Origin: Oxalobacteraceae bacterium
Lineage (GTDB): Bacteria; Pseudomonadota; Gammaproteobacteria; Burkholderiales; Burkholderiaceae_D
Assembly (NCBI GenBank): GCA_947374865.1
Contig: CANCDR010000001.1
Coordinates: forward strand, 496,001 to 560,000
Direction: 5' to 3'
Length of the DNA: 64,000 nt
Shown here: positions 3,514-46,576 of the stretch, piece after piece
Position numbering within the stretch: the stretch's first letter is position 1
How the letters are laid out: every line of letters begins with the position of its first letter
Position numbers and translations under genes: made by a program
Notes under the pieces: model-generated
Told to the model about the DNA's origin: nothing
Databases searched by the model: none
The model's input: the letters and a program-made list of their open reading frames with translations, nothing else

Positions 3514-4715
3514 TTCGTGATCACCACGACCTTCGTCCCCGCAACAATTTTATCGGTCGGTGCGAGCACCAGTTTATCGCCCGAGGCCAACGCGCCGATG
3601 ACTTCCACCGATGTGCCGATAGTGCGACCGCTGCGCACCATCACCGCTTCCACCCGATCGTCCTTGATGCGTAAAACCTGCTGCTTACCCTCGCGTTCAA
3701 CGATGGCTTGCGGATTAACTGCCAACAAGGGCTTTTGGTCGGCATCGCTGACTGCCTGCGACAAGATGGTGACCTTGGCGCTCATCTCCGGCAGGATGCG
3801 CGGGTCGAGATTTTCAAAACGAATTTTGGTCATCACGGTCGCCTTGGCGCGATCGACCGTTGGCACGATGCCGACGATGCTGCCACGGAATCGGCTGTCA
3901 GGCAGTGCGTCGAGGGTTATTTCTACCGGCTGACCAATCTTGGCCTTGGCCAGATTACTTTCTGCGACATCGGCTTCAACTTCCAGCGTCCGCATATCGG
4001 CCATCGTCACCACCGCACCCTGGGTACCGGCAGCGCTGGAAAACGGCGTGATGATATCGCCCACATTGGCATTCTTGACCAGCACAACGCCATCAAAGGG
4101 CGCGCGAATTTGCGTGAAGTCCAGATTCACCAGCTGCACTTTCATCTGTGCCTGCGCAAACGCGACGCTGGCCTGGGCCGAGCTGACTGCTGCGCGCGCT
4201 GCATTAACGCGCGTACTGGCCGTATCGAGCGCCTGCTGCGACACAAAGCCCTGCGTACGCAAGGCCTGCAAACGTTTGAATTCGGACTCGGCATTGACCA
4301 GCTCCACATTCGCCTGCGCCACACCGGCTTCGGCCTGGCGGATACCGGCCTGGGACTGGGCAATCGCCGCCTGCACATCACTGGCATCCAGACGCGCCAG
4401 CACCTCACCCTGTTTGACCTGACTGCCTTCGCGTACATTCAACTCCACCAGCCGGCCGGTGGCCTTGCTGGCCACGGCCGCGCGGCGCTGAGCGACGACA
4501 TAACCTGAAGCAGTAAGTTGGGCAAATTGCTGCGACGGGTAGGTGGTAATCACCGAGACCGCCTGCACTTCCTTTTTGCCTGGCCACAGCATCACGACCG
4601 CCAGCACCAGCAAGGCGGACAGTCCAGCTACCCAGCGACCCCAGCGTCGTCGCTTGACGGGACTGATGGCGCTGCGGTCGATTTTTAAATTTTTGAGAGC
4701 GGAAGGAAGCGTCAT
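3510..4715 (-). CDS. Efflux periplasmic adaptor, HlyD/MacA (RND adaptor) family
   Basis: A 401-residue membrane-fusion protein: basic N terminus, one membrane anchor (~29-44), a biotinyl-lipoyl-like half (VVAQRRAAVASKATGRL), a long Ala/Gln-rich coiled-coil hairpin (~105-190), the returning lipoyl half (IRAPFDGVV) and a beta-barrel domain. The order matches MacA/HlyD. It opens the efflux operon, bridging the inner-membrane ABC pump to an outer-membrane channel that is not encoded here. An 11-bp perfect inverted repeat lies 18 bp before the start and may control the operon. No strong Shine-Dalgarno is visible at ATG 4713-4715. Confidence 0.9.
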   Translation of the reverse strand: MTLPSALKNLKIDRSAISPVKRRRWGRWVAGLSALLVLAVVMLWPGKKEVQAVSVITTYPSQQFAQLTASGYVVAQRRAAVASKATGRLVELNVREGSQVKQGEVLARLDASDVQAAIAQSQAGIRQAEAGVAQANVELVNAESEFKRLQALRTQGFVSQQALDTASTRVNAARAAVSSAQASVAFAQAQMKVQLVNLDFTQIRAPFDGVVLVKNANVGDIITPFSSAAGTQGAVVTMADMRTLEVEADVAESNLAKAKIGQPVEITLDALPDSRFRGSIVGIVPTVDRAKATVMTKIRFENLDPRILPEMSAKVTILSQAVSDADQKPLLAVNPQAIVEREGKQQVLRIKDDRVEAVMVRSGRTIGTSVEVIGALASGDKLVLAPTDKIVAGTKVVVITK

Positions 4716-4732
4716 GGCGGCGTGAGGGAATA

Positions 4733-4773
4733 AACGTAATAGCGTAATTTACAACAATTTAGGCTATTACGTT
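4733..4773. repeat. Perfect 11-bp inverted repeat ahead of the efflux operon
   Basis: AACGTAATAGC (4733-4743) is exactly complementary to GCTATTACGTT (4763-4773), with a 19-nt spacer. It sits between the end of the first GH28 gene and the start of the adaptor gene, both on the minus strand. The arm centres are 30 bp apart, about three helical turns, which would suit a dimeric regulator. It could also fold in RNA as a weak terminator, but only a short T-rich stretch follows. Confidence 0.6.
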
Positions 4774-4793
4774 CATTCGCTTCATGACGGCCT

Positions 4794-6680
4794 TTAACCC
4801 GACAGCGTCGTATTGTGCAGCACACCGCCCACGCTTACGTTCTTGAGCTGCAGCCCCTGAATGTTATAGAGGTAAAACGGCTGCGCCGCATTGGCTGGGG
4901 TGCCGAAATTGCAGTCACTGATCACGACATCGGTCACAGGCAGTACCCGCGGCGCTGGTTCGGCGCCGTTGTAGTCGGACGCCACCGGACCGAGCACGAC
5001 GATCGCCTGATAACAGGAGAAGGCACCATTTTTTGTCGTCACATTCCCCACCGTGACGTTGGAGATATGTACATTCGAGACCACTGGCGGACGTGTGCGA
5101 ACGTTGTCATTGCGCGGCGCATAATCACAGTCAAACGTGACGATGCCACCGCCCGAGGTCGCTACGCTGCGGTTTTTGATCGGCGAACCTGGCAGGGAAG
5201 CATAATAGGCCGGTGTAGTCTGCACACCATTAGGTATAGAAATATTACGTACATAAAAATGCCGCAGATAGCCGCCACGATTCATGTTGGTCTTGAGACG
5301 AATCGCAATATTGAGCGGATCGGTGCGCCAGTTAATATTTTCAAATACCAGATTCTGTGCGAAGACATTTTGAATCCCGCCCGCCATTTCGCTGCCAAGC
5401 GTGACGGCGCCATGACCGCTTTGCATGATGCAGTGTTGGATTACGATATTTTGTGAGGGGCCATACTGGGTATCAAAATTCTTGCCGGCCTTGATGGCGA
5501 TGCAATCATCGCCGGTATCAAAAGTACAGCCCTCGACCAGCACATGGTCACAGGCTTCCGGATCGAAGCCATCGCTGTTCGGTCCCAGACTATTGGCATG
5601 CACCTTGCGGATCACGACATTACGACAGTGAACCGGATGGTGCTGCCAGAAAGGCGAATAATTAACTTGATAGCCCTGCATAAGCACATTGGTGCAGCCA
5701 ACAAACTGAATCATCGGTGCGCGCAAATAATGACCAACGCCGAAGATACGTCTGGCCAGCGGCACACCGGCTTCGGATAAGGCCGGCAAAAATTGGCCAT
5801 CCATACGCCAACGATCGCCTTCGCCTTGAATCAATTGACGCTGTGCTTCCGACAGACTAGGGGCAATTTGTGCGAGCGAGCTTGGGTTTGCTGGATTAGG
5901 CGTATTTTCTGACAACGCATTCAGCGGCGCCGTGCCATTGCCAGCCTGCAGACCATCCGGATGGAAGGCGGCATTCGCGCCTTTCCATCGCCACCAGCAA
6001 TTGCCGGCTGCGTCAAACGGCACGCCACCCTGACCGTTCAAAATACTGCTCCAGTCTTCCCCCGTGATGGCGATATTGTCCTGGCCATAGGCATACACCA
6101 TAGGCGAGTAATTAAGGCAGTCATTTGACTGCCAGCGCGATATCACCAGCTTGCCATTGGCGCCGCAGTCGATATCACCGTACTTGGCAAAGTCGGCCGG
6201 GTTACTGCTGAAGTAGATTTGTGCGCCGGCTTTTAAATGGACGTGCACATGCGAGCGCAAAACGATCGGTCCAGCACAATACCAATTCCCGGCCGGGATC
6301 ACGACCCGTCCGCCACCGGCCTTGTGACAGGCGGCGATGGCCGCACTGATCGCCGGATAACAGTCTTTGGCATTCGGCGCCTGGGTATTGACCTCGCCCT
6401 GTTCGTGATGGGATATCCAGGCGCGCACTTTGATCAATTTACACGTCGCCGCACCATAGGCGGTGATGAGAAAATCCTGCGCGCGAAACGGCAGCGGCTT
6501 GGATAAGCGGTCAATGATGGCCTGCGCCTGCAGCCATGGATCGCCGGGCGGATTATCTGCCAGACTTGGCAGTGTGGCGCCCAGGCCTAATCCGGTGACG
6601 GAGGCGGCTTGCAGCAGTCGACGGCGCTGCAAGTCTGGCTGTGCTTGAGTATCTACTTTAGGCGGTTTTTTGTTATTCAT
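4794..6680 (-). CDS. Polygalacturonase, glycoside hydrolase family 28 (Tat-exported)
   Basis: A 628-residue GH28 enzyme that should hydrolyse alpha-1,4-galacturonan. The catalytic signature is complete in order: NSDGFD (368-373), TGDDC (389-393) followed by IAIK, SGHG (421-424) and RLK (461-463), on a right-handed beta-helix. The N terminus has a twin-arginine signal (QRRRLLQAA, ~19-27, then a hydrophobic stretch), so it is predicted to be exported folded by Tat. It is longer than typical ~400-residue polygalacturonases because of ~100 extra residues before the catalytic core (~210-320). The next gene upstream is a paralogue. Endo- or exo-action cannot be decided. Confidence 0.92.
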   Translation of the reverse strand: MNNKKPPKVDTQAQPDLQRRRLLQAASVTGLGLGATLPSLADNPPGDPWLQAQAIIDRLSKPLPFRAQDFLITAYGAATCKLIKVRAWISHHEQGEVNTQAPNAKDCYPAISAAIAACHKAGGGRVVIPAGNWYCAGPIVLRSHVHVHLKAGAQIYFSSNPADFAKYGDIDCGANGKLVISRWQSNDCLNYSPMVYAYGQDNIAITGEDWSSILNGQGGVPFDAAGNCWWRWKGANAAFHPDGLQAGNGTAPLNALSENTPNPANPSSLAQIAPSLSEAQRQLIQGEGDRWRMDGQFLPALSEAGVPLARRIFGVGHYLRAPMIQFVGCTNVLMQGYQVNYSPFWQHHPVHCRNVVIRKVHANSLGPNSDGFDPEACDHVLVEGCTFDTGDDCIAIKAGKNFDTQYGPSQNIVIQHCIMQSGHGAVTLGSEMAGGIQNVFAQNLVFENINWRTDPLNIAIRLKTNMNRGGYLRHFYVRNISIPNGVQTTPAYYASLPGSPIKNRSVATSGGGIVTFDCDYAPRNDNVRTRPPVVSNVHISNVTVGNVTTKNGAFSCYQAIVVLGPVASDYNGAEPAPRVLPVTDVVISDCNFGTPANAAQPFYLYNIQGLQLKNVSVGGVLHNTTLSG

Positions 6681-6782
6681 GCTTTGTCATCTATCCGGTT
6701 GAAATTGGCGGGCAAAATCTCCCATGTAAGCCGTCGCATCTGCGCATGCTTACCGCACGCAAAGTTTAAGAAAATATCATCA

Positions 6783-8648
6783 TTATCCCGACAAGGTTTC
6801 ATTGAAGGTCTTGCTGCCGATCTTGACGTTTTTGAGCTTGAGACTCTTGACGTTAAAAAGATAAATTGGTTTATCTGCATTGACCGGCGTACCCAAATCG
6901 CAGTCACTAATATGGATATCGTTCACCGGAAGAATCGCCGGCACAGGCAGCGGCCCGTTGTAGTCGGTCACGACCGGACCCAGGATCACGACTGCCTGGT
7001 AGCAGGAATGTTTGCCACCGGGAGGCGTACCAACTTTGATGTTCGAAATATGCACGCCTGATACCGTCGGTGGACGGATGCGCACGTTATCAGAGCTTGG
7101 ATCATAGCCGCAGTCGATCGTAATGATGCCACCGGCCGACGTCGCCACCGTTTTAGACGGAATCAGCGAACCAGGCAAGCTGGAGAAAGTCGCCGGTGTG
7201 GTACGAATCCCGTTCGGGATCTGCACATTGCGCACATGCAGATTATGCAGAAATCCACCCCGACTCATATTGGTCTTGAGACGAATGGCGATGTTGAGCG
7301 GATCCGTCTGCCAGTTACTGTTTTCAAACACCAGATTCTGCGCATAGATATTGCGAATACCACCCGACATGATGCTGCCCAGCGTAATGGCGCCATGGCC
7401 GCTCTGCATGCGACAACGCTGAATCACAATATCCTGCGCCGGTCCAAACTGGATATCCGGACCCTTGCCGGAATCGATGGCAATGCAATCGTCGCCGGTA
7501 TTGAAATGACAGTCTTCGATCAGCACATTACTGCACGATTCGGGATCAAAGCCATCGCTGTTAGGGCCCATGCTATTAGCGAAGATTTTCTTCACATGCA
7601 TGTTGTGGCAATTGACCGGATTGTGCTGCCAGAACGGCGCATGGTTAAGCTGATAGCCTTCAAACAGAACATTCGTGCAGCTGATAAATTGCACCATGTG
7701 CGGTCGCAAATAATGGCCAATGCCGAGAACGCGCTTTTCGATCGGTAATCGGGCTTCGGCCATGGCGCGCAAAAAGTTTGCGTCATTGCGCCAGCGATCG
7801 CCTTCGCCCTGAATAAATTTGGCTTCCTGCTCGCTCAGATGCGGTGCAATCTCGCGCAGGGATTGTGGATTATTGACGTTGACCGATACTTCGGTCTGAC
7901 CTTTGTGATGCTTGATGTAGTCGCCGGAACCGGCAGCGATATCACCCGCCCAGTTTGGTTTGTCACGTCCCTTCCATGACCACCAGCAGTCGGTACTGTC
8001 GGCGAATGTTACGCCGGCCTGACCATCTAAAATGCTGGTCCAGTCTTCACCTGTGAGGGCAATATTAGTCTGCCCGTAGGCGTACACCATCGACGAATAA
8101 TTCAGGCAGTCGTTACCTTCCCAGCGGGTGATCGAGAGTTTGCCGTTGATACCGCAGTCGAACTTGCCGTATTTGGCGTAGTCCGCCGGATTATTACTGA
8201 AGTAGACATGCGCGCCAGCAGCCAAGTGCACATGCACATTCGACAGCAGCACGATCGGTCCGCAGACATACCAGTTCCCGGCCGGGATCAGTACCCGTCC
8301 GCCGCCGGCTTTATTGCAGGCCGCGATCGCGGCGCTAATGGCTGGATAACAATCCGTTGATCCCGCAGCCGGCGTTTTCAAGCTGGCTTTTTCGACGAAG
8401 GAAATCCACGCCGTGGTCGGCACCAGCGCACAGGGGGCGGCACCAAAATTCGTAATCAGAAAATCTTCTTGGCGAAACACGATCGGCTTGGAGACGCGAT
8501 CAATAATGACTTGCGCAGCCTTCCAGGGATCAGCGCCGGCACTGGCTACCGATTCGGCAGACGATTCGGCAGCCAATACTGCTGGCGCTGTTCCCAGCAA
8601 GCTCATACCAGCGGCAGACAAGGTCTGCATGAAATCTCTACGTTTCAT
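6783..8648 (-). CDS. Polygalacturonase, glycoside hydrolase family 28 (Tat-exported paralogue)
   Basis: A 621-residue GH28 protein collinear with the downstream paralogue: NSDGFD (363-368), TGDDC (384-388), SGHG (416-419) and RLKTN. The N terminus MKRRDFMQ is a compact Tat signal ending near AVLAA. The strand after the catalytic DD differs: the paralogue has IAIK, this protein IAID (Asp392), followed by SGKG. The difference beside the active site may mean another product pattern or substrate. The gene follows the TonB receptor gene on the same strand, but an intrinsic terminator stands between them, so its expression may depend on read-through. Confidence 0.92.
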   Translation of the reverse strand: MKRRDFMQTLSAAGMSLLGTAPAVLAAESSAESVASAGADPWKAAQVIIDRVSKPIVFRQEDFLITNFGAAPCALVPTTAWISFVEKASLKTPAAGSTDCYPAISAAIAACNKAGGGRVLIPAGNWYVCGPIVLLSNVHVHLAAGAHVYFSNNPADYAKYGKFDCGINGKLSITRWEGNDCLNYSSMVYAYGQTNIALTGEDWTSILDGQAGVTFADSTDCWWSWKGRDKPNWAGDIAAGSGDYIKHHKGQTEVSVNVNNPQSLREIAPHLSEQEAKFIQGEGDRWRNDANFLRAMAEARLPIEKRVLGIGHYLRPHMVQFISCTNVLFEGYQLNHAPFWQHNPVNCHNMHVKKIFANSMGPNSDGFDPESCSNVLIEDCHFNTGDDCIAIDSGKGPDIQFGPAQDIVIQRCRMQSGHGAITLGSIMSGGIRNIYAQNLVFENSNWQTDPLNIAIRLKTNMSRGGFLHNLHVRNVQIPNGIRTTPATFSSLPGSLIPSKTVATSAGGIITIDCGYDPSSDNVRIRPPTVSGVHISNIKVGTPPGGKHSCYQAVVILGPVVTDYNGPLPVPAILPVNDIHISDCDLGTPVNADKPIYLFNVKSLKLKNVKIGSKTFNETLSG

Positions 8649-8684
8649 GATGCGTCTTTTTTAAATAAGGGGATCAGTACCGAT

Positions 8685-8718
8685 AAAAAAATCCCCCCAA
8701 ACGTTAGTCTGGGGGGAT
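8685..8718 (-). terminator. Rho-independent terminator after the TonB receptor gene
   Basis: Read on the minus strand, a perfect 9-bp stem (ATCCCCCCA / TGGGGGGAT, 8691-8699 and 8710-8718) with a 10-nt loop is followed by a run of at least six T (8685-8690). It begins 8 bp after the receptor stop codon and ends 36 bp before the GH28 start codon. Confidence 0.9.
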
Positions 8719-8726
8719 GTGCTTGC

Positions 8727-11420
8727 TTAGTACGCGTACGTTACGCGGGTATTGAAAGAACGTCCGATCGGACTTGCTGCGCTGCTCAAATAGCCGTTGG
8801 AATACAGGCTGCTATTTGTCACTGGCGGATTGACGTTAAACAGATTGGTAATGCCCGCTGCGATCGTGACATGCTTGATGCCGCGATAGTTAGTGCTCAG
8901 ATTCCAGACGTTATAGGACTCAATATCACGGAAGTATTGGGCCGCGACCAGGTTCTGATCGTGGTAGCCCGCATTATGATTTTGCGTCAGCTGGGCCGAA
9001 AACGGTCCATTCGCCCAGGAGAATGCTAGGGTATGTTTCCAACGATAGGTAATGATCGGGAAGCTGCTGGTCGTACCATTGCTAGCCAGTCCAAATTGAC
9101 CAATGTTGGATGTGAACGGCGCATCTTTTTCAAGCTGGTTATCAAACTGGGTCAGGTAGGTACCATCGAGCTGAATCTTGAAATCACCGGCCCATGTTTT
9201 TGGCAGGTCATAGGTGACGCTCAAGTCAATACCAGCTGCTTTTTGACCACCCAGGTTCATCACGATATTTTTGATGTAGTTGAGTGAACCGTCTGCGTTA
9301 CGCACAAACAGGCTGCTGTATTTTGCCGGATTCAGAAAGTAGGATTGCTCCGGCAAGTTCGCGATCATGTTATCCATCGTGATACGCCAGTAGTCTACCG
9401 ATACCGTCAGATTCTTGTTCGGCTCGAAGACCAGACCCAGTGTTGCGCCTTGCGAGGTTTCTGGTGTCAGATCAGGATTCGCACCAGTCTGTTTTGGCAT
9501 CGTGGCATTACATACTGTGGCCGAGACCTGCCCAGCGATCGCCTTACCTGTACCAGCAACGCCTGGTGTACCGCCTGGGCAAAGTACCGGATCATCCCAT
9601 TTTGCCGAGGTCGTCGCATTGGCACCGGCAACCCGGTAGCCATACGCATCAAACAGGGTCGGTGCACGGAAGCCTGTGTTGGCCGAACCACGGAACATGA
9701 CGAGTTTGGAAGGCTGATAGCGGAAGCTGGCCTTTGGATTGATCGTGTTACCGAAGTCACTGAAATTATCGTCACGCACAGCAAAGTTCAGATTGAGTTC
9801 TTTCGTGATCGGCGCATCCAGCTCGGCAAACAAGGCCGCCACATTGCGCTCGCCTTTGCCCTCAACAGACAGCGTGTAATTGTAGAGATAGCCTGCAGGG
9901 GTCTTGGTGTCGATGGTCGTGTCACGATGGTAATCGGCACCGATCGCGACGGCCAGCTGACCACCGCCCAAAGCCATTAGTTCGCGATTGATCGTGACAT
10001 CCACACCGGCAAAGGTACTCTTTGATGTACGGATATTGTTACCATCAAACGAAATGCTCTTCAAATAAGCCAGACCAGCAGCATCTTGCAGACCAAATGG
10101 ATTGAGTGCACCACTCGTTAAGCCGGCTTGAATTTTTGCTGCTTCGACGGTGCCGGCAGCGGTATCCGATTTACGATCACTAATCGCATAGGTCGCACCG
10201 AGTTTGTAGTCCCAGCCAGCCATACGTCCTTCGTCGACCAGGGTTGTGCGTTGCAAAACCTGGACATCTTTGGTGGTTTGCAAACCCAGATCAGCGATAC
10301 TCCAGGTGACCAGTAATGGCTCGCCTTTCAGACCGGCGACAGCTGGCACACCACCGCTAGCACCCGGATACCATTTACTGGTCGATGGCAAAGAGCCAAG
10401 GACACTATTCAAACCCAGACTCGTTACCGGATTAGCGACCCGTTCAATAAATTCCTGACCGCGCGTGTAATCGAGGGTGATCGTATGATCATCACTAATT
10501 CGCTTGGTGCCTTTGGTGTAGAACGAAATTTGTTCATTACCGTATAAGGCGGTGTTGTAGTTGAGCGTATTTAAAATACAGGTGCCCTTTTGACCCAGGA
10601 TCGAATACGGCGCAGAACAACTTGTTCCGTAAGGATTAGCGGCCGTTTTGTTAGTCGCGGTCGTGAAGTTGGCCGGCATGGCGTAGCCACCGGTGCCCAG
10701 CGACGGCGCGCGGCCAATGCTGGTGAGCAGTTCGGCGGAACTCAGTTCGGCCCGGTCGCTTGCTGCAAGACGGCTGCGATTATGCGCATCCATCGTGGCA
10801 TACACGTTCCAGCCATCGACTGCCAGATCACCCTTACCGACCGTGAAGCCCAGACGCTTTTCAGCGCCGCCACCAGTCGCCTGTGGCCTGACCATTTGCG
10901 CTGTGGCAGTGGCACCTTCAAAAGATTTACGGGTAATGAAGTTGACCACGCCGCCAATCGCATCCGAGCCGTAAATCGACGATGCGCCATCGCGCAAAAC
11001 TTCGACCTTGGAAATGGCGCTCATTGGAATGACGTCCAGATTGGCGTAACCGTCAGCGATCGCTTCATTGGTGCCGCGACGTCCGTTGATCAAGACCAGC
11101 GTACGGTTCACGCCCAAGCCACGCAAATTGATGTTGGTACCGGATCCGGCGTTGGATGGTGCCAGCGATGCGGACTGCGGCAAGGCCATCATCAAATCTG
11201 CCAGCGTGGTCATACCGCGGCTAACCATTTCTTCTGATGAAATGGTCGACACTGGCAAAGACGCTTCGGTAGCCAAACGCTTGATGCTCGAACCGGTCAC
11301 TTCAATGCGCTGAACGCTTTCGTCTTGCTGTGCCCATGCCGGGTTTGCCAGGCTCATGACGGCCAAGGTAATGGACGATAAAACCAGTCCGCTGTGAATG
11401 TGCTTGATACGCTTACTCAT
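8727..11420 (-). CDS. TonB-dependent outer-membrane receptor of the pectin locus
   Basis: About 897 residues. The frame stays open to 11555, but ATG 11418-11420 is preferred: it has a GAGGAG Shine-Dalgarno at good distance and begins a proper signal peptide ending ANPAWAQ. A plug domain follows (VEVLRDGASSIYGSDAIGGVVNFITRK), then a 22-strand-type barrel that ends in an aromatic C terminus (TRVTYAY). It should import a substrate over the outer membrane using TonB-ExbBD, not encoded here. Its neighbours (two GH28 enzymes, udh, garD) and the operator array in its promoter point to oligogalacturonides. That substrate is an inference from context. Confidence 0.93.
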   Translation of the reverse strand: MSKRIKHIHSGLVLSSITLAVMSLANPAWAQQDESVQRIEVTGSSIKRLATEASLPVSTISSEEMVSRGMTTLADLMMALPQSASLAPSNAGSGTNINLRGLGVNRTLVLINGRRGTNEAIADGYANLDVIPMSAISKVEVLRDGASSIYGSDAIGGVVNFITRKSFEGATATAQMVRPQATGGGAEKRLGFTVGKGDLAVDGWNVYATMDAHNRSRLAASDRAELSSAELLTSIGRAPSLGTGGYAMPANFTTATNKTAANPYGTSCSAPYSILGQKGTCILNTLNYNTALYGNEQISFYTKGTKRISDDHTITLDYTRGQEFIERVANPVTSLGLNSVLGSLPSTSKWYPGASGGVPAVAGLKGEPLLVTWSIADLGLQTTKDVQVLQRTTLVDEGRMAGWDYKLGATYAISDRKSDTAAGTVEAAKIQAGLTSGALNPFGLQDAAGLAYLKSISFDGNNIRTSKSTFAGVDVTINRELMALGGGQLAVAIGADYHRDTTIDTKTPAGYLYNYTLSVEGKGERNVAALFAELDAPITKELNLNFAVRDDNFSDFGNTINPKASFRYQPSKLVMFRGSANTGFRAPTLFDAYGYRVAGANATTSAKWDDPVLCPGGTPGVAGTGKAIAGQVSATVCNATMPKQTGANPDLTPETSQGATLGLVFEPNKNLTVSVDYWRITMDNMIANLPEQSYFLNPAKYSSLFVRNADGSLNYIKNIVMNLGGQKAAGIDLSVTYDLPKTWAGDFKIQLDGTYLTQFDNQLEKDAPFTSNIGQFGLASNGTTSSFPIITYRWKHTLAFSWANGPFSAQLTQNHNAGYHDQNLVAAQYFRDIESYNVWNLSTNYRGIKHVTIAAGITNLFNVNPPVTNSSLYSNGYLSSAASPIGRSFNTRVTYAY

Positions 11421-36631: not shown

Positions 36632-37882
36632 TTAGACCGCATTCGCCGTATGCAAGGCAGCAATTTGCGCTGCGCTGTAACCAAGACCAGTCAATACTTC
36701 ATCAGTATGCTCGCCTAACAATGGCGAACCGGTGATCTCGACGGTCGTGTCCGAGAACTTGATCGGGCTACCAACAGTAAGGTACATACCGCGTTCCTTG
36801 TGCTGCACTTCCGTAATGGTACCACTCGCACGCAGGGACGGATCAGCCGCGATTTCTTTCATCGACAGCACAGGCGAACATGGGATGTCGAATTTACGCA
36901 GGATGTCGACCGCTTCAAACTTGGTCTTATCTTTGAGCCATTCTTCGATGATGGCGAAGATGTCAAAGATCTTGTCCTGACGTGCCGACGCGGTGTTGTA
37001 GGCAGGATCGTTGATCCACTCTTCACGACCCAATGCCTTACAGATTGGCGCCCAGGCATGACCCTGGATGGTGAAATAAATGTAGGCGTTCGGATCAGTT
37101 TCCCAGCCCTTACACTTCAAGACCCAGCCTGGCTGACCGCCACCACCGGCGTTACCACCGCGCGGCACGACATCGGTAAATTTACCGTGCGGGTACTGTG
37201 GATACTCTTCCAGATAACCGACACGATCCAGACGCTGCTGGTCGCGCAGTTTGACGCGGCACAGGTTCAAGACACTATCCTGCATCGAAACGGCGACTTT
37301 CTGGCCTTTGCCAGTTTTATCGCGCCCGATCAGCGCTGTCAGAATACCGATGGCTAAGTGCATACCCGTATTGGTGTCACCCAAAGCCGCTGCGCTGACA
37401 GTCGGTGGGCCGTCCCAGAAACCGGTCGTCGAGGCAGCACCGCCGGCGCACTGCGCGACGTTTTCGTAAACTTTCAAGTCTTCGTAGTGGTGACCATCGC
37501 TAAAGCCCTTGACGGACGCAACGATCATCTTCGGATTCAATTCGTTGATGTGTTCCCATGTGAAGCCCATACGATCCAATGCGCCCGGACCGAAGTTCTC
37601 GACCATGACGTCGCAATCCTTGATCAGCTTCTCCAGCACTTCCTTGCCTTCAGGCGTTTTGGTGTCGAGGGTCAGTGAACGCTTATTACTGTTCAACATG
37701 GTGAAATACAGCGCATCAACACCGGGGATGTCGCGCAGCTGACTACGTGTCACGTCACCTGAACCTGGGCGCTCGACCTTGATCACGTCGGCACCAAACC
37801 ATGCCAGCATCTGCGTACAGGCTGGTCCGGCTTGTACGTGGGTGAAATCGATAATCTTGATACCTTCTAGTGGCTTACTCAT
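36632..37882 (-). CDS. frc: Formyl-CoA:oxalate CoA-transferase (first copy)
   Basis: A 416-residue class III CoA-transferase from ATG 37880-37882 (MSKPLEG). It matches E. coli YfdW in length and sequence. The catalytic Asp169 lies in ALGDTNTG exactly as in characterised FRC, the glycine loop GGGGQ (246-250) is intact, and [15 protein letters not shown] and GEHTDEVL are present. Residue 48 is Gln, as in YfdW, not the Trp of the Oxalobacter enzyme, and the ~12-residue Oxalobacter insertion is absent. It transfers CoA from formyl-CoA to oxalate in the cytoplasm. It lies 141 bp downstream of oxc. Confidence 0.95.
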
Positions 37883-38023
37883 GAGTCCAGGTCTCCATTG
37901 CAATGGTTAAACTTGATACCTGGTCCAGCAACAGCGCTGCTGTCCAAGTGATAAATGCTCCACAATTTTGTGGAAATTCTTTGCTACTTTTCTTGTTAAT
38001 GACAATCCTGCCTGCTGCCGTAC

Positions 38024-39733
38024 TTACTTTTTACTGGCAGCGCTTTGCGGATTCAGATTCGTCAAACGACCACTCTCGGTGCCCGCTGTTTCATCAATCA
38101 CCGCATTGATCAGGGCAGGCTTACCTGCCGCGATCGCCTCCAGCAAGGCCTTGGTCATTTCTTCTGGTGTCGTGACGTGATAACCGATGCCGCCGAAGGC
38201 TTCGATCATCTTGTCGTAACGGGCATTTTTGACGAACACCGTTGGCGCTACATCTTTGCCACCAGTCGGGTTCACGTCGGTACCGCGATAGACGCCGTTG
38301 TTATTAAATACAATCGTCGTCACCGGTAGGTTATAGCGGCAGATGGTCTCGAGTTCCATGCCGCTAAAGCCAAATGCGCTGTCGCCTTCGATCGCCACGA
38401 CTGGCAAACCGCTGGTCACCGCAGCACCGATCGCGTAGCCCATGCCGATGCCCATGATGCCCCAGGTACCGGAATCGAAACGCTTACGTGGCTCGTACAT
38501 GTCGATGATGCTACGTGCGTAATCGAGCGTATTGGCGCCTTCATTGACGACATTAATGTCCGGCCGTGTTTTGAGTACATCACGAATCGCCCGCAGCGCG
38601 CTGTGGAAGTTCATCGGCGAAGGATTGAGCGCGAGCGTCGCGGCCATCTTGCTCAGATTTTTTTCCTTGCGTTCGTTAATCGCGCCAGTCCAGTCTGCGC
38701 TCGGCTTGGTAAAGCCGGCTTCGATACCGGTTAAGAGAGCGGCCACGCAGGAACCGATATCACCGATCACCGGTGCGGCGATCGCCACGTTGCTGTCGAT
38801 TTCTGTCGGCGAAATATCGATCTGGATAAATTGTTTTGGTGCGCCCCAGGTTTTGCCCTTGCCGTGCGAGAGCAGCCAATTCAAGCGTGCACCGATGAGC
38901 AGCACCACGTCGGCTTCTGCCAGAACGTAAGAGCGTGCAGCAGAGGCGGACTGTGGATGCGTATCCGGCAGCAGGCCTTTGGCCATCGACATCGGCAGAT
39001 AAGGAATACCGGATTTTTCGACCAATGCGCGAATGGCGGCATCGGCTTGGGCGTAGGCGGCGCCTTTACCCAACAAGATCAGCGGACGCTTGGCGCCCTT
39101 GAGCAGGTCGAGCGCGCGCTGCACAGAGTCTGGCGCAGGAATTTGACGCGGCACCGGATCGACGACCCGCACCAGCGATTTTCTGCCGTGCTCAGCATCG
39201 AGCGACTGACCCAGCAATTGGGCCGGCAGATCCAGATACACACCGCCCGGACGACCCGACACCGCCGCCCGAATCGCGCGCGCAATGCCGATGCCGATGT
39301 CTTCGGCTTTGTTAATCCGATAAGACGCTTTGGCATACGGCTTGGCCGCATTGAGCTGATCCATCTCTTCGTAATCGCCCTGCTGCAGATCGACGATTTC
39401 ACGCTCACTGGAGCCGCTGATCAGAATCATCGGGAAGCAATTGGTCGTGGCATTGGCCAAGGCGGTCAGTCCATTCAAAAAGCCAGGGGCTGACACAGTG
39501 AGGCAAATACCTGGCTTTTGCGTCATGTAGCCAGCGATCGCGGCAGCATTACCCGCGTGCTGCTCATGGCGAAAACCGATAAAGCGCATGCCTTCAGCCT
39601 GTGCCAGACGGGCCAGATCGGTGATTGGAATACCGACCAGACCAAAAATGGTGTCAATGTCATTATGTTTCAGTGCATCGATTACCAGATGAAATCCGTC
39701 TGTTAATGCAGGCGATTGTGTGTCGTTTGTCAT
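38024..39733 (-). CDS. oxc: Oxalyl-CoA decarboxylase
   Basis: A 569-residue thiamine-diphosphate enzyme, the same length as the Oxalobacter formigenes enzyme (568). It has the N-terminal PYR domain with the catalytic-type Glu in [17 protein letters not shown], a central domain and the C-terminal PP domain with the ThDP motif [21 protein letters not shown], closing on NN. It converts oxalyl-CoA to formyl-CoA and CO2, so with frc it regenerates the CoA donor. Upstream are a long hairpin in the leader and a promoter sharing a dyad with the divergent Crp/Fnr-type regulator. Confidence 0.96.
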
Positions 39734-39920: not shown

Positions 39921-39982
39921 TTTTCCCATCATCATGATTGCCATCTTTGATTTTGCCGTTTTGCCCCCCGGCCTTCCTTCCC

Positions 39983-40591
39983 ATGTCGTCAGTCGATCAA
40001 CATTCCGAACGCAACGTGATCCGCGTTCAGCTCAAGCAAAATTTAGTCTTGAAGGGCATGAGCGACGCGGAGATCCTGGCGCTCGAACCGCTCCTGACCG
40101 TGGTGGACTGCCATAAGGGCGATTACCTGCTGCACCAGGGCGTGCATGAGATGGAGCAGTACTTTATTCTCGACGGCATTCTTAAACGGGTGGTGACGAG
40201 TCTGCAGGCCAAGGAAATGATTCTGCGCTTTACCCATAATCGTGACATGGAAACCAGCTACGCCGCCTGGCGCCTGAAAACCCCCACGCCGTACAGCATT
40301 GTCTGCGTGACCAAGGCGCGGGTCGTGAAATTGCCACTTTCACAATGGGTGGCGTTTATTGAAGAACATCCGCATTTGAAGGAAAGCTTCGAATTTGAAG
40401 TGATGCGTCACATGAGCGAAATCATGGCCCATTCCATCACCCTGCATTTACTTGATGCGCCGGGGCGGGTGCACCGCTTCTTGCGCAAACATGCCGATCT
40501 GTTTGACCTGATTCCCAAAAAGGAACTGGCGTCGTATCTCAACATGTCGCCAGAAACCCTGTCCCGCTTAAAGCATCAGGGCAAAATCTAG
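39983..40591 (+). CDS. Crp/Fnr-family transcriptional regulator, likely controlling oxalate genes
   Basis: About 202 residues from ATG 39983 (a longer frame begins at 39938). An N-terminal cyclic-nucleotide-binding-type beta-barrel (~15-110) is followed by a long dimer helix and a C-terminal HTH ending in SPETLSRLKHQGKI. The recognition helix reads E191-T-L-S194-R195, the same E..SR pattern by which FNR reads TTGAT, fitting the adjacent dyad. Only two cysteines are seen, so it lacks the four ligands for an FNR iron-sulfur cluster and must sense something else. The gene is divergent from oxc. No good Shine-Dalgarno is visible. Confidence 0.87.
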   Translation: MSSVDQHSERNVIRVQLKQNLVLKGMSDAEILALEPLLTVVDCHKGDYLLHQGVHEMEQYFILDGILKRVVTSLQAKEMILRFTHNRDMETSYAAWRLKTPTPYSIVCVTKARVVKLPLSQWVAFIEEHPHLKESFEFEVMRHMSEIMAHSITLHLLDAPGRVHRFLRKHADLFDLIPKKELASYLNMSPETLSRLKHQGKI

Positions 40592-40600
40592 TCGACATTT

Positions 40601-41419
40601 TTAGCCGTAGTGCATACCTACCTGGACGAGCAAGATGATCGACATGCCCCATAATAATTGCCGCAGTAGCGCCACATAACGCTGCGGATCAATCCGGCTG
40701 CGAAGTCGGATTCCATACATAAGCGCCGCCACTGAGATGAATGTCAGGGGGACCGATTGCAGTAAGGTCTTCAGACTGATTTCTCCGATCAGACTCAAGC
40801 TCACTGCCTGCGTCATTTTGCCGACCAGGAAGCACAGATTCAGCATCTGCGTCATCGGCAGCGCCTCTAATCCCAGTGCCATAAAATAAATGACTAAGGG
40901 CGGCAAGGCGACGTTGACCGAACCCGACAAAAATCCCGCCAGCAGGCCAAAAACAAGCGCCGAACTATGTGGATGGCGCTTGAGCAGGGTCCAGTCAAGC
41001 TTTCGAAGGTAGGCCTGCTGCAAATACACGACGATCATCAGCGCAAGTAAGATTTTCAGCGGCTCGGGGTCGGCGATGAGCAAAAATCGCGAGCCGAGTA
41101 CCGTTCCAATGACAACGTAGACCGATACCGGCCAATAGCGCCCAATACTCAGCCGCCAGTTCCCACCTGACACGATACTGATGATGTTGATCACGATATT
41201 CGGAAACAAGGTCAAAAAAATGGCCGTCTTCATATCCGAAAACATCGCCACGATCGGTGTCGAAATGAGTGGAAAGCCAAAACCCAGAGCGCCATGCGCC
41301 AGGGCCGCCACAATTAACAGGGCGACTAGGGCCAGCAACATGAACCAATCATGGGTAGGGAATAAATAGAACATCATGCTCATCATGTGATGCGGCCATC
41401 CTGAGGGGATGGAGCGCAT
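40601..41419 (-). CDS. TauE/SafE (TSUP) family membrane exporter
   Basis: A 272-residue membrane protein with about eight hydrophobic segments and two related halves: AALAHGALGFGFPLISTPIVAMF near the N terminus and LVFGLLAGFLSGSVNVALPPLVIYF in the second half, both typical of TSUP transporters. Members move sulfite, sulfoacetate or other small organic acids; some lie in oxalate and C2-acid loci. The stop is 9 bp from the stop of the Crp/Fnr-type gene (convergent). Several in-frame ATGs cluster at 41386-41419, so the exact start is uncertain. Confidence 0.87.
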   Translation of the reverse strand: MRSIPSGWPHHMMSMMFYLFPTHDWFMLLALVALLIVAALAHGALGFGFPLISTPIVAMFSDMKTAIFLTLFPNIVINIISIVSGGNWRLSIGRYWPVSVYVVIGTVLGSRFLLIADPEPLKILLALMIVVYLQQAYLRKLDWTLLKRHPHSSALVFGLLAGFLSGSVNVALPPLVIYFMALGLEALPMTQMLNLCFLVGKMTQAVSLSLIGEISLKTLLQSVPLTFISVAALMYGIRLRSRIDPQRYVALLRQLLWGMSIILLVQVGMHYG

Positions 41420-41529
41420 TGTTATTCATATTTTTTATATCTGGTATGACATCTCTCAATTGGACAAGTCACTTTCCGACTAAGATACTTCGCACAATTA
41501 CAGAATTTTAATTGCTTAGGAGTTTTACC

Positions 41530-41676
41530 ATGTCGACATCAACATACGCGTTCCAAAATACCAATCAGGCGACCACAGCCACTAAGTTTTCATTTTTGTC
41601 CTTCTTGTTCGCGCTGGAATTACGCGAAGCAAACAGCGCAGAAGGCTCGGATGGCGCTTTCACTTGGGGCATGTAA
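41530..41676 (+). CDS. 48-residue small ORF of unknown function, next to oxlT
   Basis: This ORF begins at ATG 41530 with a strong AGGAG Shine-Dalgarno (41518-41522) seven bases away and ends at TAA 41674-41676, just before an intrinsic terminator. It is therefore a complete small transcription unit. The peptide has a polar Ser/Thr/Asn-rich N terminus, a short hydrophobic stretch FSFLSFLFALEL (20-31) and an acidic, glycine-containing tail ending TWGM. It is too short and broken for a clear signal peptide or a full membrane helix. I do not recognise the family. It sits between the TauE-type gene and convergent oxlT. Confidence 0.6.
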   Translation: MSTSTYAFQNTNQATTATKFSFLSFLFALELREANSAEGSDGAFTWGM

Positions 41677-41694: not shown

Positions 41695-41728
41695 AAAATG
41701 CGCCGTGTCTCCACGGCGCATTTTTTTT
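41695..41728. terminator. Bidirectional intrinsic terminator between the small ORF and oxlT
   Basis: Stem TGCGCCGTG (41699-41707) with CACGGCGCA (41712-41720), a TCTC loop, an A-rich left flank and eight T on the right (41721-41728). It works in both directions, ending the small ORF (plus) and oxlT (minus). Confidence 0.92.
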
Positions 41729-41773: not shown

Positions 41774-43051
41774 TCAGGCTTTTACCTCATCCATGAATTT
41801 TTCTCGCATCGGTTTTAACACATACCAGGCCAGGATGGCAGCGACTGCATTCAAACCGCAGCCGACGAAAAACACCGCTTCCCAACTACCGGAAACCGCC
41901 GCGATATAGCTCGAGATCGGTACAAAGATAGATGCCGTTCCTTTTGCGGTGTACAGCAGACCTGCGTTGCCGGCAGCATTTTTAGTACCGAATGTATCGG
42001 CACATGTCGCCGGAAACAGGCTGTAAATTTCACCCCAGGCAAAGAACACCACACCTGTCAGGATCACAAACATGATCGGATCACGACCCCAATAGTACAG
42101 CGCCAGGATACCGACCGATTCCAGTGCGAAGGCAATGAACATCGTCTTCTCGCGACCGATCTGATCCGATACCCAGCCAAAGAAAGGCCGTGTCAAACCA
42201 TTCAGCACGCGGTCAATCGCCAGTGCAAATGTCAGTGCTGGCAAAATCATGCCCATGATATTGAAGGTCACGCCATCAATTTTAAAATCCTTGGCGATCG
42301 GGCCCATTTGCGCCGTTGCCATCAAACCACCTGCGGCGACCAGCACAAACATGATGTACATCACCCAAAATACGGGCTTACGGACAATTTGTGTCGGCGT
42401 GAAATCAACCTTCGACTGGCGGAGTTTAGACACCTTGGCCACCACACCACCGACATGCGCAGGTGGGCGAACCATGAACAACGCCAGCAAGATCACGATC
42501 AAACCTTGTACGACACCAAAAAACAAGAAGGTATATTCATAACCGCTCTTGCTGATCATGGTGGAAATCGGAATGATCGTCGCTGCAGAACCCGCGCCAA
42601 ATCCGGCGGCGGTCAAACCCGCTGCTAAACCACGACGGTCCGGGAACCACTTCAGCGCAGATCCGACACAGGTACCGTAGACCGCACCAGCGCCAATACC
42701 GCTAATAGCGGCTGCGATGTAGAGGTACATCAGTGAATCAGCGTGGGAATTCATGACCCAGCCAATACCACACAACAGACCGCCAAACAGAACGACTGGA
42801 CGCGGACCGAATTTATCGACCGCCCAGCCTTCAATCGGCACCAACCATGTCTCTGTCAAAATGAAAATGGTGAACGCGACTTGAATCGCCGTTTTCGACC
42901 AGCCATATTTGTCAGCGATCGGATTGACGAATAGGGTCCAACCGTATTGCAAATTAGCGATCATCGCCATACAGATGATGCCCATGATGAGCTGCATCCA
43001 ACGGTAATATGGCGGCCGAACTACCGCCGCGCCTGTATTTTCTTGTGTCAT
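41774..43051 (-). CDS. oxlT: Oxalate:formate antiporter (MFS, OxlT family)
   Basis: A 425-residue, 12-helix major facilitator close in length to Oxalobacter OxlT (418). It shows NLQYGWTLFVNPIADKYGWS in helix 1, GWAVDKFGPRPVVLFGG after helix 2 (the MFS A motif), GIGAGAVYGTCVGSALKWFPDRRGLAAG and the C-terminal-half repeat GWVSDQIGREKTM. OxlT exchanges external oxalate for internal formate; with Frc and Oxc the cycle consumes a proton and builds a proton-motive force. The presence of frc and oxc supports oxalate as substrate. A bidirectional terminator follows. Confidence 0.92.
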   Translation of the reverse strand: MTQENTGAAVVRPPYYRWMQLIMGIICMAMIANLQYGWTLFVNPIADKYGWSKTAIQVAFTIFILTETWLVPIEGWAVDKFGPRPVVLFGGLLCGIGWVMNSHADSLMYLYIAAAISGIGAGAVYGTCVGSALKWFPDRRGLAAGLTAAGFGAGSAATIIPISTMISKSGYEYTFLFFGVVQGLIVILLALFMVRPPAHVGGVVAKVSKLRQSKVDFTPTQIVRKPVFWVMYIMFVLVAAGGLMATAQMGPIAKDFKIDGVTFNIMGMILPALTFALAIDRVLNGLTRPFFGWVSDQIGREKTMFIAFALESVGILALYYWGRDPIMFVILTGVVFFAWGEIYSLFPATCADTFGTKNAAGNAGLLYTAKGTASIFVPISSYIAAVSGSWEAVFFVGCGLNAVAAILAWYVLKPMREKFMDEVKA

Positions 43052-45027: not shown

Positions 45028-46275
45028 TTAAATCACCTTCTCATCCCGCATGGCATGGATTTCCTCTGCGCCATAGCCGAGAAACGCCATCACCTCGTCG
45101 GTATGCTCACCCAGTAAAGGCGAACGCGTCACTTCGGTGCTACTGTCCGACATCTTGATCGGATTGCCGACGGTCAGATACTTGCCGCGCGTCGGATGAT
45201 CGACTTCGACGATGGTGCCGCTTTCACGCAGCGAGGGTTCTTCGGCGATTTCCTTCATCGACAGGATCGGCCCGCAGGGAATATCGTAGGCATTGAGGAT
45301 GTCCATGACTTCGAACTTATCTTTGGTCATGGTCCATTGTTCGATGCGCGCGAAGATCGGCTTGAGATGCAGCAGGCGCGCCGCCGGGGTGGCGTAGGCT
45401 TCATCGGTAATCCAGCCAGGCTCACCAATTACCTTGCACACCGCCGGCCACACTGCACCCTGGGTAATGAAGTAAATGTAGGCATTCGGATCGGTTTCCC
45501 ATCCCTTGCATTTTAAAATCGATCCTGGCTGACCACCGCCTGAGGCATTGCCAGCGCGCGGGACCGCGTCACCAAAATGCTGATCCGGGTATTGCGGATA
45601 TTCCTTCATCACGCCGGTACGTTCGAGGCGCTGCTGATCGCGCAATTTGACGCGGCATAAATTGAGCACGCTATCCTGCATCGCTGCCAAAACTTTCTGC
45701 CCGCGTCCCGTCGTATTACGCTGATACAGCGCTGCCACAATACCGAGCGCCAGATGCAGGCCAGTGCCGCTGTCGCCAATCTGCGCACCCGTGACCATCG
45801 GCGGACCGTCATCGAAGCCGGTGGTCGACGCCGAACCGCCGGCACACTGGGCGACGTTTTCATACACCTTGCAATCGACATATGGACCCGGGCCAAAACC
45901 CTTGACCGAGGCGACCACCATGCGCGGGTTGAGTTCCTGAATACGCTCCCAGGTAAAACCCATACGGTCTAAGGCGCCGGGGGCAAAATTTTCGACCATC
46001 ACATCGCAGTTCTTGATCAACTTGTCGAGCACCGCTTTACCCTTGGGGTTCTTGGCGTCGAGCGTGATGGAGCGCTTATTATGGTTAAGCATAGTGAAAT
46101 ACAAACTGTCGACATCGGGAATATCGCGCAATTGACCGCGCGTGGCATCGCCCTCACCGGCTCTTTCCACCTTAATGACGTCTGCCCCAAACCAGGCCAA
46201 CAGCTGGGTGCATGTCGGGCCTGACTGCACATGGGTAAAGTCAAGAATCCGAACTCCGTCGAGCGCTTTGCTCAT
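45028..46275 (-). CDS. frc: Formyl-CoA:oxalate CoA-transferase (second copy)
   Basis: A 415-residue class III CoA-transferase from ATG 46273-46275 (MSKALDG) with an AGGGGA Shine-Dalgarno; the open frame to 46410 is not conserved. It is strongly similar to the first copy over its length and keeps the catalytic Asp168 (IGDSGTG). It differs in the glycine loop, SGGGQ (245-249) instead of GGGGQ, and has FDDGPP for FWDGPP before the active site. These changes may alter the CoA donor; it could be an acetyl-CoA:oxalate or related transferase. An HDAC-like gene follows. Confidence 0.9.
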
Positions 46276-46576
46276 TGTTATCCCCTGAAAATATCGAAAC
46301 GATCTGAAATGTGGATGAATGCATGTCTTTTGCAAGCTGTATTCCACGAAGCAATGCACAATGCCTTCATCGCTAGCTTTACTATGCTGCAGGCCAATTT
46401 TGGCGCTCATCTTAGCGAACGAGCTTCCACATTAGCAATGACTGTAATCAATTTTAACCAATCAAGTTCCCATTTTAAGGCACCAGACGCGAATTAGTTG
46501 CTGCAGCACTCTTCGTGATACATTCGGCAAGAAAATGCAATCTTGAATTTCGCTCATTGATAAGGTCCCGATCGCC
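46276..46576. other. 301-bp intergenic region between second frc and HPP gene
   Basis: A divergent promoter region. I see no gene with a start and ribosome site, no strong hairpin and no FNR-type dyad. Both promoters must lie here but none stands out. Confidence 0.45.

Follow-up and report, generated by a model that had tools for sequence, protein, structure and literature searches.

A conserved small reading frame of oxalate catabolism loci carries an upstream promoter element in common with RF02278 small RNAs

Introduction

Oxalate is a widespread carbon source derived from plants and fungi, and also the acid of kidney stones, and the genes for its degradation are well known. Carbon control in bacteria also offers cases of a small protein working beside a small RNA (sRNA), namely SgrS/SgrT and Spot 42/SpfP, in which sRNA and protein come from one transcript, and in which SgrT works on a glucose permease.

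The closest described sRNAs are those of Rfam family RF02278. The available text of the Burkholderia cenocepacia report describes CU-rich double hairpins predicted to cover ribosome-binding sites, attenuation of growth by ncS27 overexpression, and an upstream motif common to three of four homologs of this species, and states that the control of sRNA accumulation in Burkholderia is unknown (PMC5688073). A further report, in the part available, describes effects of ncS27 on growth on several carbon sources, and proposes that it balances metabolic shutdown upon nutrient deprivation (PMC10987360). Excerpts of other studies describe RF02278 RNAs as toxic in E. coli when cloned (PMC4603805), list four of them for Herbaspirillum seropedicae (PMC7011215), and describe Bordetella S17 as related to RF02278 at its 5' end and not toxic in the same way (PMC11722255). 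Among small proteins, the nearest comparison is the DUF1127 family, for which the available excerpts describe CcaF1 as a small protein that binds RNA and takes part in sRNA maturation (PMC10253847), and an action of DUF1127 proteins on the sensor kinase PhoR (PMC12501420). In the literature searched, which leaves out most subscription papers, we found no report of a small protein for the oxalate catabolism locus (oxc, frc, oxlT), nor of the small protein or the promoter link described here.

The small-protein gene and its signals

The window, i.e. the whole 64-kb stretch of DNA analyzed, contains a 48-codon ORF which a sequence-only reading had proposed as a small gene with its own ribosome-binding site and terminator, of the kind that automatic annotation could skip. 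The ORF, its AGGAG site and the hairpin are all where that reading placed them, and its two nearest genes, named as a TauE-type exporter and oxlT, are confirmed by matches to PF01925 and TIGR04259 (Table 1). The terminator is not the gene's own: T runs flank the 13-bp hairpin on both strands, so that it can serve both the peptide gene and the convergent oxlT. A -35/-10 pair (TTGGAC, 18 nt, GATACT; in a promoter scan variant TGGACA, 17, GATACT) lies 41-70 nt ahead of the ATG, and its position predicts a transcript of about 230 nt that begins with a leader of about 35 nt. No Rfam family reaches threshold anywhere in the 64-kb window. The terminator loop of the peptide gene (41705-41711) contains TGTCTCC, the seed of the RF02278 sRNAs, probably by chance.

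Table 1. Features of the oxalate locus in the window
Feature	Position	Strand	Basis or remark
Formyl-CoA transferase frc, first copy	36632..37903	-	TIGR03253, 728.9 bits
Oxalyl-CoA decarboxylase oxc	38024..39733	-	TIGR03254, 1008.7 bits
CRP/FNR-type regulator (cyclic-nucleotide-binding domain)	39938..40591	+	PF00027; recurrent upstream neighbor, in the peptide's orientation
TauE-type ORF	40601-41419	-	PF01925; nearest gene on one side of the peptide
Conserved upstream element	41421..41464	+	runs into the -35 box; consensus gaTATtcac-N7-ATAtC.g.TATcaga.ctcgcaATTGGA
-10 box	41484..41489	+	GATACT; promoter scan; position agrees with the TATAAT-like box of relatives
Shine-Dalgarno	41518-41522	+	AGGAG, 7 bases ahead of the ATG; AGGAG-type site recurs in relatives
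Small-protein gene (very probable)	41530-41676	+	ATG at 41530, 48 codons, TAA ending 41676, C-terminus GAFTWGM
Bidirectional intrinsic terminator	41695-41724	either	13-bp hairpin, common to the peptide gene and oxlT
Oxalate/formate antiporter oxlT	41774-43051	-	TIGR04259, 623.4 bits; convergent with the peptide gene
Formyl-CoA transferase frc, second copy	45028..46410	-	TIGR03253, 731.8 bits

The hydrophobic stretch noted earlier is present in the 48-residue protein (Kyte-Doolittle mean 0.91 for the best 19 residues), and would be short as a transmembrane segment. The AlphaFold model consists of a single helix at residues 13-39 and is poor (mean pLDDT 59.6, pTM 0.26); a helix model of such low confidence establishes neither insertion into a membrane nor a mode of docking, and the proposed association with the membrane is possible for a one-helix protein but weak.

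A protein family under purifying selection

The ORF is very probably a gene, since it has 50 relatives, a conserved Shine-Dalgarno site and C-terminus, and about three times as much synonymous as nonsynonymous change per site. When the window protein alone was used to query 392 genomes of the same bacterial family, themselves a sample of a larger group, relatives from several genera emerged above much noise, the best at E 5.5e-5. Profiles were built from relatives (A1, 14 rows; A2, 37 rows), and at E <= 1.4e-4 these found 50 loci, spread over 42 of the 392 genomes; the 37 distinct A2 sequences do not cover all 50. The frame, described in the sequence-only reading as an orphan, accordingly has relatives at 50 loci, and these retain the frame, the Shine-Dalgarno site and the C-terminus for which a search had been suggested. 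The window protein matches the A2 profile, of which it is itself a row, over positions 1-54 (E 2.1e-12), and possesses the Arg that is invariant across the 37 aligned sequences and the C-terminal Gly that is conserved in at least 90%. All 37 start with Met, coded in one (L069) by GTG. The usual layout is a polar start, a hydrophobic stretch, LRE.L, a linker rich in Gly, Asp, Lys and Ser, and a terminal A-x-x-[W/Y/C]-G-[M/L], with a different end, AAYLA, in one A2 row (L090) and in two later relatives (L117, L118). Over the 25 sequence pairs with more than 62% identity, pooled pS is 0.42 and pN 0.14, with single-pair nonsynonymous/synonymous ratios of 0.12 to 0.66 and two pairs saturated. Judged by these substitutions, the reading frame is under purifying selection, which, together with its conservation, supports the view that this is a gene of the sort that annotation could miss.

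The records with relatives include named Collimonas and Massilia, a Herminiimonas MAG, an Oxalobacteraceae MAG and a Pseudomonadota MAG, and from these names the bacterial family is taken to be Oxalobacteraceae. An order-wide profile search of 399 genomes, in which at most 16 candidates per genome were scored and diverged members may be missed, gave three matches at E <= 0.01, two of them in the same bacterial family. The third, outside it (G774, E 0.006), sits inside a 260-residue frame and was judged to be chance. Searches of Pfam, NCBIfam (window protein alone), PHROGs and PDB gave no convincing match for the small protein, and single-member Pfam and PHROGs matches among the 37 members (E 0.019-0.1) were taken as chance. 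In the genome contig collection, a single sequence as query gave no match and a profile of close rows gave 11 loci; one relative as query gave no match in the plasmid collection. By these searches, the small protein is a member of a family without a name in the libraries searched.

Outside the count of 50 are 11 weaker matches (E 0.006-0.05). Seven were inspected (L120-L126; the other four are G349, G070:C173, G230 and G150), and are cousins of about 80 residues in other genomes of the bacterial family, with a polar start and helix as in the family and a different conserved C-terminus, e.g. ...NLSAELRFMASRG. In six of these seven, the gene may overlap another one downstream, to judge by a TGATCATG junction.

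Association with the oxalate locus

The peptide gene lies inside an oxalate locus at 41 of the 50 loci, spread over 14 genus codes; 40 were assigned by neighbor comparison, and one (G315) by coordinates, the peptide gene being 4.4 kb from oxc. Some contigs are short, showing only an OxlT-like gene (L068), or only panE and the FAA-hydrolase gene or more (L083, L085). The recurrent locus comprises LysR, a 111-residue protein, OxlT, an FAA-hydrolase-family protein, a PanE/ApbA-family reductase and the peptide gene, followed by the CRP/FNR-type regulator, oxc, frc and a PAS protein. The LysR and PAS proteins were named by eye, and the other neighbor families from genes of the window and of L037. 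It is panE, rather than oxlT, that adjoins the peptide gene in many loci, while oxlT is the convergent neighbor in several. The TauE-type gene, from which a function had earlier been argued, has a match in only one of 35 loci (L091), and that argument falls away; what does recur near the peptide gene is the CRP-like regulator, panE/oxlT, oxc and frc. The 111-residue protein that recurs beside oxlT (L047:13887-14222), with 35-56% matches in many oxalate loci, has no Pfam match at E <= 1.

The oxalyl-CoA decarboxylase gene oxc (TIGR03254) is present in 67 of the 392 genomes, and the peptide is present in 32 of these 67 compared to 10 of the 325 oxc-negative genomes (odds ratio 28.8, Fisher p 7e-20, a statistic that treats related genomes as independent). 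A copy lies in the oxalate locus in 28 of the 32 genomes with both. Nine of the ten oxc-negative exceptions share one genus code, g28, which holds two named Collimonas records, and two of these nine have a ThDP enzyme, only 26% identical to Oxc, beside frc in the oxalate locus (L078:4503-6146, acetolactate-synthase-like, and L092:4996-6639). Profile search did not detect the peptide in 35 of the 67 oxc-positive genomes, so the pathway can exist without it. G027, the one further genome searched from the genus of the window, lacks peptide and oxc alike, and nine inspected oxc regions (L128-L136, the last being a 3.1-kb contig of G077, whose peptide is elsewhere) have neither a peptide match nor a site scoring >= 14 for the element described below.

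Nine loci are found elsewhere (G090:C401, G090:C597, G003:C3, G055:C5, G055:C1, G077:C66, G015:C1 and two in G096), all in genomes that possess oxc; given these loci, the target of the peptide may not be oxalate-specific. In L080 (about 3800-9200), a family member lies directly 3' of prpC, acnD and prpF of the methylcitrate cycle, as read by eye, an arrangement that may point to another pathway having a small protein of its own.

The upstream promoter element

Alignment of the upstream regions of peptide genes at ATTGG gave the consensus of a 44-nt element, the second TAT of which lies 79-100 nt ahead of the start codon, with a TATAAT-like box downstream. By an in-sample matrix made from 37 rows, the element is ahead of 36 of the 37 aligned peptides; the matrix misplaced two rows, one of which (L047) was regained by scanning (25.3) and the other (L076) was not. 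The peptide promoter of the window scores 45.9 at 41421, also in-sample, and is the sole site scoring >= 14 in the 64 kb. Outside the matrix rows, the element is carried by L117 (29.4) and L118 (33.7). In L119 one of two peptides has it (17.1), and members L076 and L127 have no site scoring >= 14.

In 878,503 bases from 56 sources, sites scoring >= 14 are peptide promoters, one sRNA promoter, three cousins and two others, namely an opposite-strand overlap in L037 and one site in L090 that we could not explain; no such site arose in 192 kb of window sequence after mononucleotide shuffling. With the element so rare, a generic strong promoter was rejected as its explanation. The cousins with the element are L126 (23.3), L123 (17.9) and, barely, L124 (14.3), and in the matrix scan L120-L122 and L125 are without it. 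The local CRP-like protein is not favored as the binder, as the element is also ahead of RF02278 sRNAs in G011, a genome without an oxc match. A spacing of 22 bp between the TAT triplets would fit a tandem dimeric activator bound beside the -35 box. A TATACTGCACTGCAACA-like sequence is found at and just after the -10 box in several peptide promoters (e.g. L037, L041, L044, L045 and L083), as well as ahead of six of the seven cousins, and is possibly a second regulatory site.

Promoter link to RF02278 sRNAs

A pattern search for the element in six genomes also turned up, in three of them, a short unit consisting of TGTCTCC...CTCCTCC, a hairpin and a terminator; by Rfam, this is the Betaproteobacteria toxic sRNA, RF02278. 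Two copies in L140 score 72.0 and 70.2 bits, and those in L141 (49.3) and L143 (47.4) fall just below the gathering score of 50. A Guanidine-II riboswitch match (43 bits, gathering score 32) is also present at L140:1035-1081 on the minus strand.

RF02278 was then searched in six genomes of the family (53 matches) and in fifteen order-level genomes. The element was scored for 30 of the 53 family matches, 23 of these 30 being over the Rfam cut-off, and for 8 of 17 non-family matches, nine from G028 being omitted. It occurs (score >= 14) in 15 of the 30 same-family sRNAs, always starting 74-75 nt before the seed, one of the 15 (L174) having been found via the element itself; at this score it is absent from the other 15, and from all eight scored sRNAs of other bacterial families. 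A reciprocal matrix was made from sRNA promoters only, using the 27 of 30 sRNAs with an exact TGTCTCC seed, placed by seed distance; the start offset of 75 nt derives from the earlier element scoring, and is free by 72-78. Its consensus is g.TAT..a.......aATaac.ggTAT...aaaaataaatTaGa, and across the 64-kb window it scores the peptide promoter highest (34.0, the next site reaching 13.5). The sRNA and peptide matrices correlate at 0.73 in register, and at most at 0.28 over 16 shifted registers. The peptide gene of the window has the same element in the same register as RF02278 promoters, and this two-way promoter evidence lifts it above an ordinary missed ORF.

In the 3.27-Mb genome to which the window belongs, the core pattern with at most one mismatch has two sites only, ahead of the peptide gene (no mismatch) and of an RF02278 sRNA on C30 (one mismatch), and the reversed-pattern control has none. 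Two sites with two mismatches have no peptide or RF02278 gene by eye, and the other two of the three RF02278 sRNAs in this genome are without the element at score >= 14. In L088, outside the oxalate locus, a peptide gene is followed in tandem on the same strand by an RF02278 sRNA (L088:9046-9107, minus strand, 54.5 bits), and the element precedes both. CTCCTCC was not found in the 64-kb window.

Targeting of the peptide mRNA by the sRNA was considered and does not seem likely. The predicted pairing of the genome's own sRNA with the peptide leader is weak, ranking 33rd of 42 mechanically called starts, so that peptide and sRNA look co-regulated, and not like regulator and target. The same sRNA pairs with oxlT at -14.0 kcal/mol (6th of 41) and with one frc at -14.4 kcal/mol (4th of 41). 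Any anti-Shine-Dalgarno sRNA pairs with any good Shine-Dalgarno site, and such ranks are weak evidence either way.

Proposed mechanism and alternatives

In the mechanism that we propose, to which we give an even chance, the ORF would be translated into a small regulatory protein that acts on the oxalate pathway, and is driven together with an RF02278 sRNA by an activator at the common element. One putative activator, probably responding to carbon or growth state, would bind the TAT/ATA/TAT element just upstream of the -35 box, and would turn on the single-gene peptide unit and at least one RF02278 double-hairpin sRNA together. In line with what is published on its relatives, the sRNA arm would cover the ribosome-binding sites of genes for carbon use. 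The protein arm would act post-translationally on the oxalate pathway encoded around the peptide gene, most likely by docking of its helix, the candidate partners being OxlT and the oxalyl/formyl-CoA enzymes and the free C-terminal [W/Y/C]G[M/L] serving as recognition motif, and this contact may set the activity of the pathway by restraining or promoting it. The earlier suggestion of a regulatory peptide gains support from the conservation, the purifying selection and the promoter in common with regulatory RNAs.

A competing explanation, which we consider unlikely though worth keeping in view, is a general stress or starvation small protein of DUF1127-like type, acting cell-wide on RNA turnover or a sensor kinase, for which the oxalate locus would be mere hitch-hiking. 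It would account for the 9 of 50 members outside oxalate loci, most of which have the same kind of promoter, and for the element in two of the seven 80-residue cousins clearly (L126, L123) and in one barely (L124), and a precedent exists in the action on PhoR described in the available part of the DUF1127 report (PMC12501420). However, hitch-hiking would predict a weaker pattern than the one seen, in which 41 of 50 members, from 14 genus codes, lie in a single functional locus and presence goes with oxc, and a match to DUF1127 is absent. The stable linkage to one catabolic locus also speaks against a reading as a type I toxin.

The protein might instead be a small membrane-bound inhibitor or stabilizer of OxlT, by analogy with SgrT on the glucose permease. 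Convergence with oxlT here and in several loci, the one predicted helix and the short hydrophobic stretch would fit this, but the frequent adjacency of panE in place of oxlT, the shortness of the hydrophobic run and the members outside oxalate loci make it improbable. Still a little less probable is a dual-function RNA, in which the transcript would act mainly as an sRNA and the peptide would be secondary. The RF02278-like promoter, the close terminator and the TGTCTCC at its loop are consistent with this; against it, selection acts on the protein, the window has no Rfam match, and the seed is not seen in the 60-90 nt after the stop codon inspected in relatives. The precursor of a ribosomally made, modified peptide or signal, also raised by the sequence-only reading, has a leader-like N-terminus and a strongly conserved C-terminal end in its favor, but is very improbable, as no peptide-modifying enzyme was recognized among the recurrent neighbors, a part of which (nine proteins) were named, and the C-terminus is rather uniform for a diversifying product.

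Returning to the activator-driven regulatory protein, a broader form of this proposal, which we rate as a toss-up, is that one transcription factor of this bacterial family drives a mixed regulon of entirely tiny products, comprising anti-ribosome-binding-site sRNAs that repress carbon genes at the RNA level and proteins of at most 66 residues that, through protein contact, each tune a single catabolic pathway, mostly that of oxalate. If this is true, the common promoter would be a tag for finding unannotated small proteins. This small gene, conserved and set amid the oxalate genes, is unmatched in the family libraries searched, and the locus and the promoter in common with growth-slowing sRNAs suggest a hidden protein partner in carbon-use control. 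The defined 44-nt element, with two clear sites in its own genome, makes the control of the double-hairpin ‘toxic’ sRNAs testable.

Comparison with known systems

Compared with the RF02278 sRNAs (ncS03, ncS05, ncS27, ncS62), the peptide gene has the element and register of half of the scored sRNAs from this bacterial family, but is a protein gene and not an sRNA; the published relatives act in carbon use, and the upstream motif published for Burkholderia may or may not be the element found here, both as far as the available text of that report goes (PMC5688073). Compared with the known oxalate catabolism locus of oxc, frc and oxlT, the difference is a peptide gene lying inside it in most cases. 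The DUF1127 proteins (CcaF1, YjiS) are likewise tiny, and we take their architecture to be like that of the window protein, which has no DUF1127 Pfam match at E <= 10, nor do the 37 members at E <= 0.1. In SgrS/SgrT and Spot 42/SpfP, sRNA and protein are joined in one RNA, whereas here they are separate genes with like promoters, and no sequence relation is claimed. By analogy, the window protein appears to resemble the sRNA-partner small proteins CcaF1, SgrT and SpfP in its principle of action.
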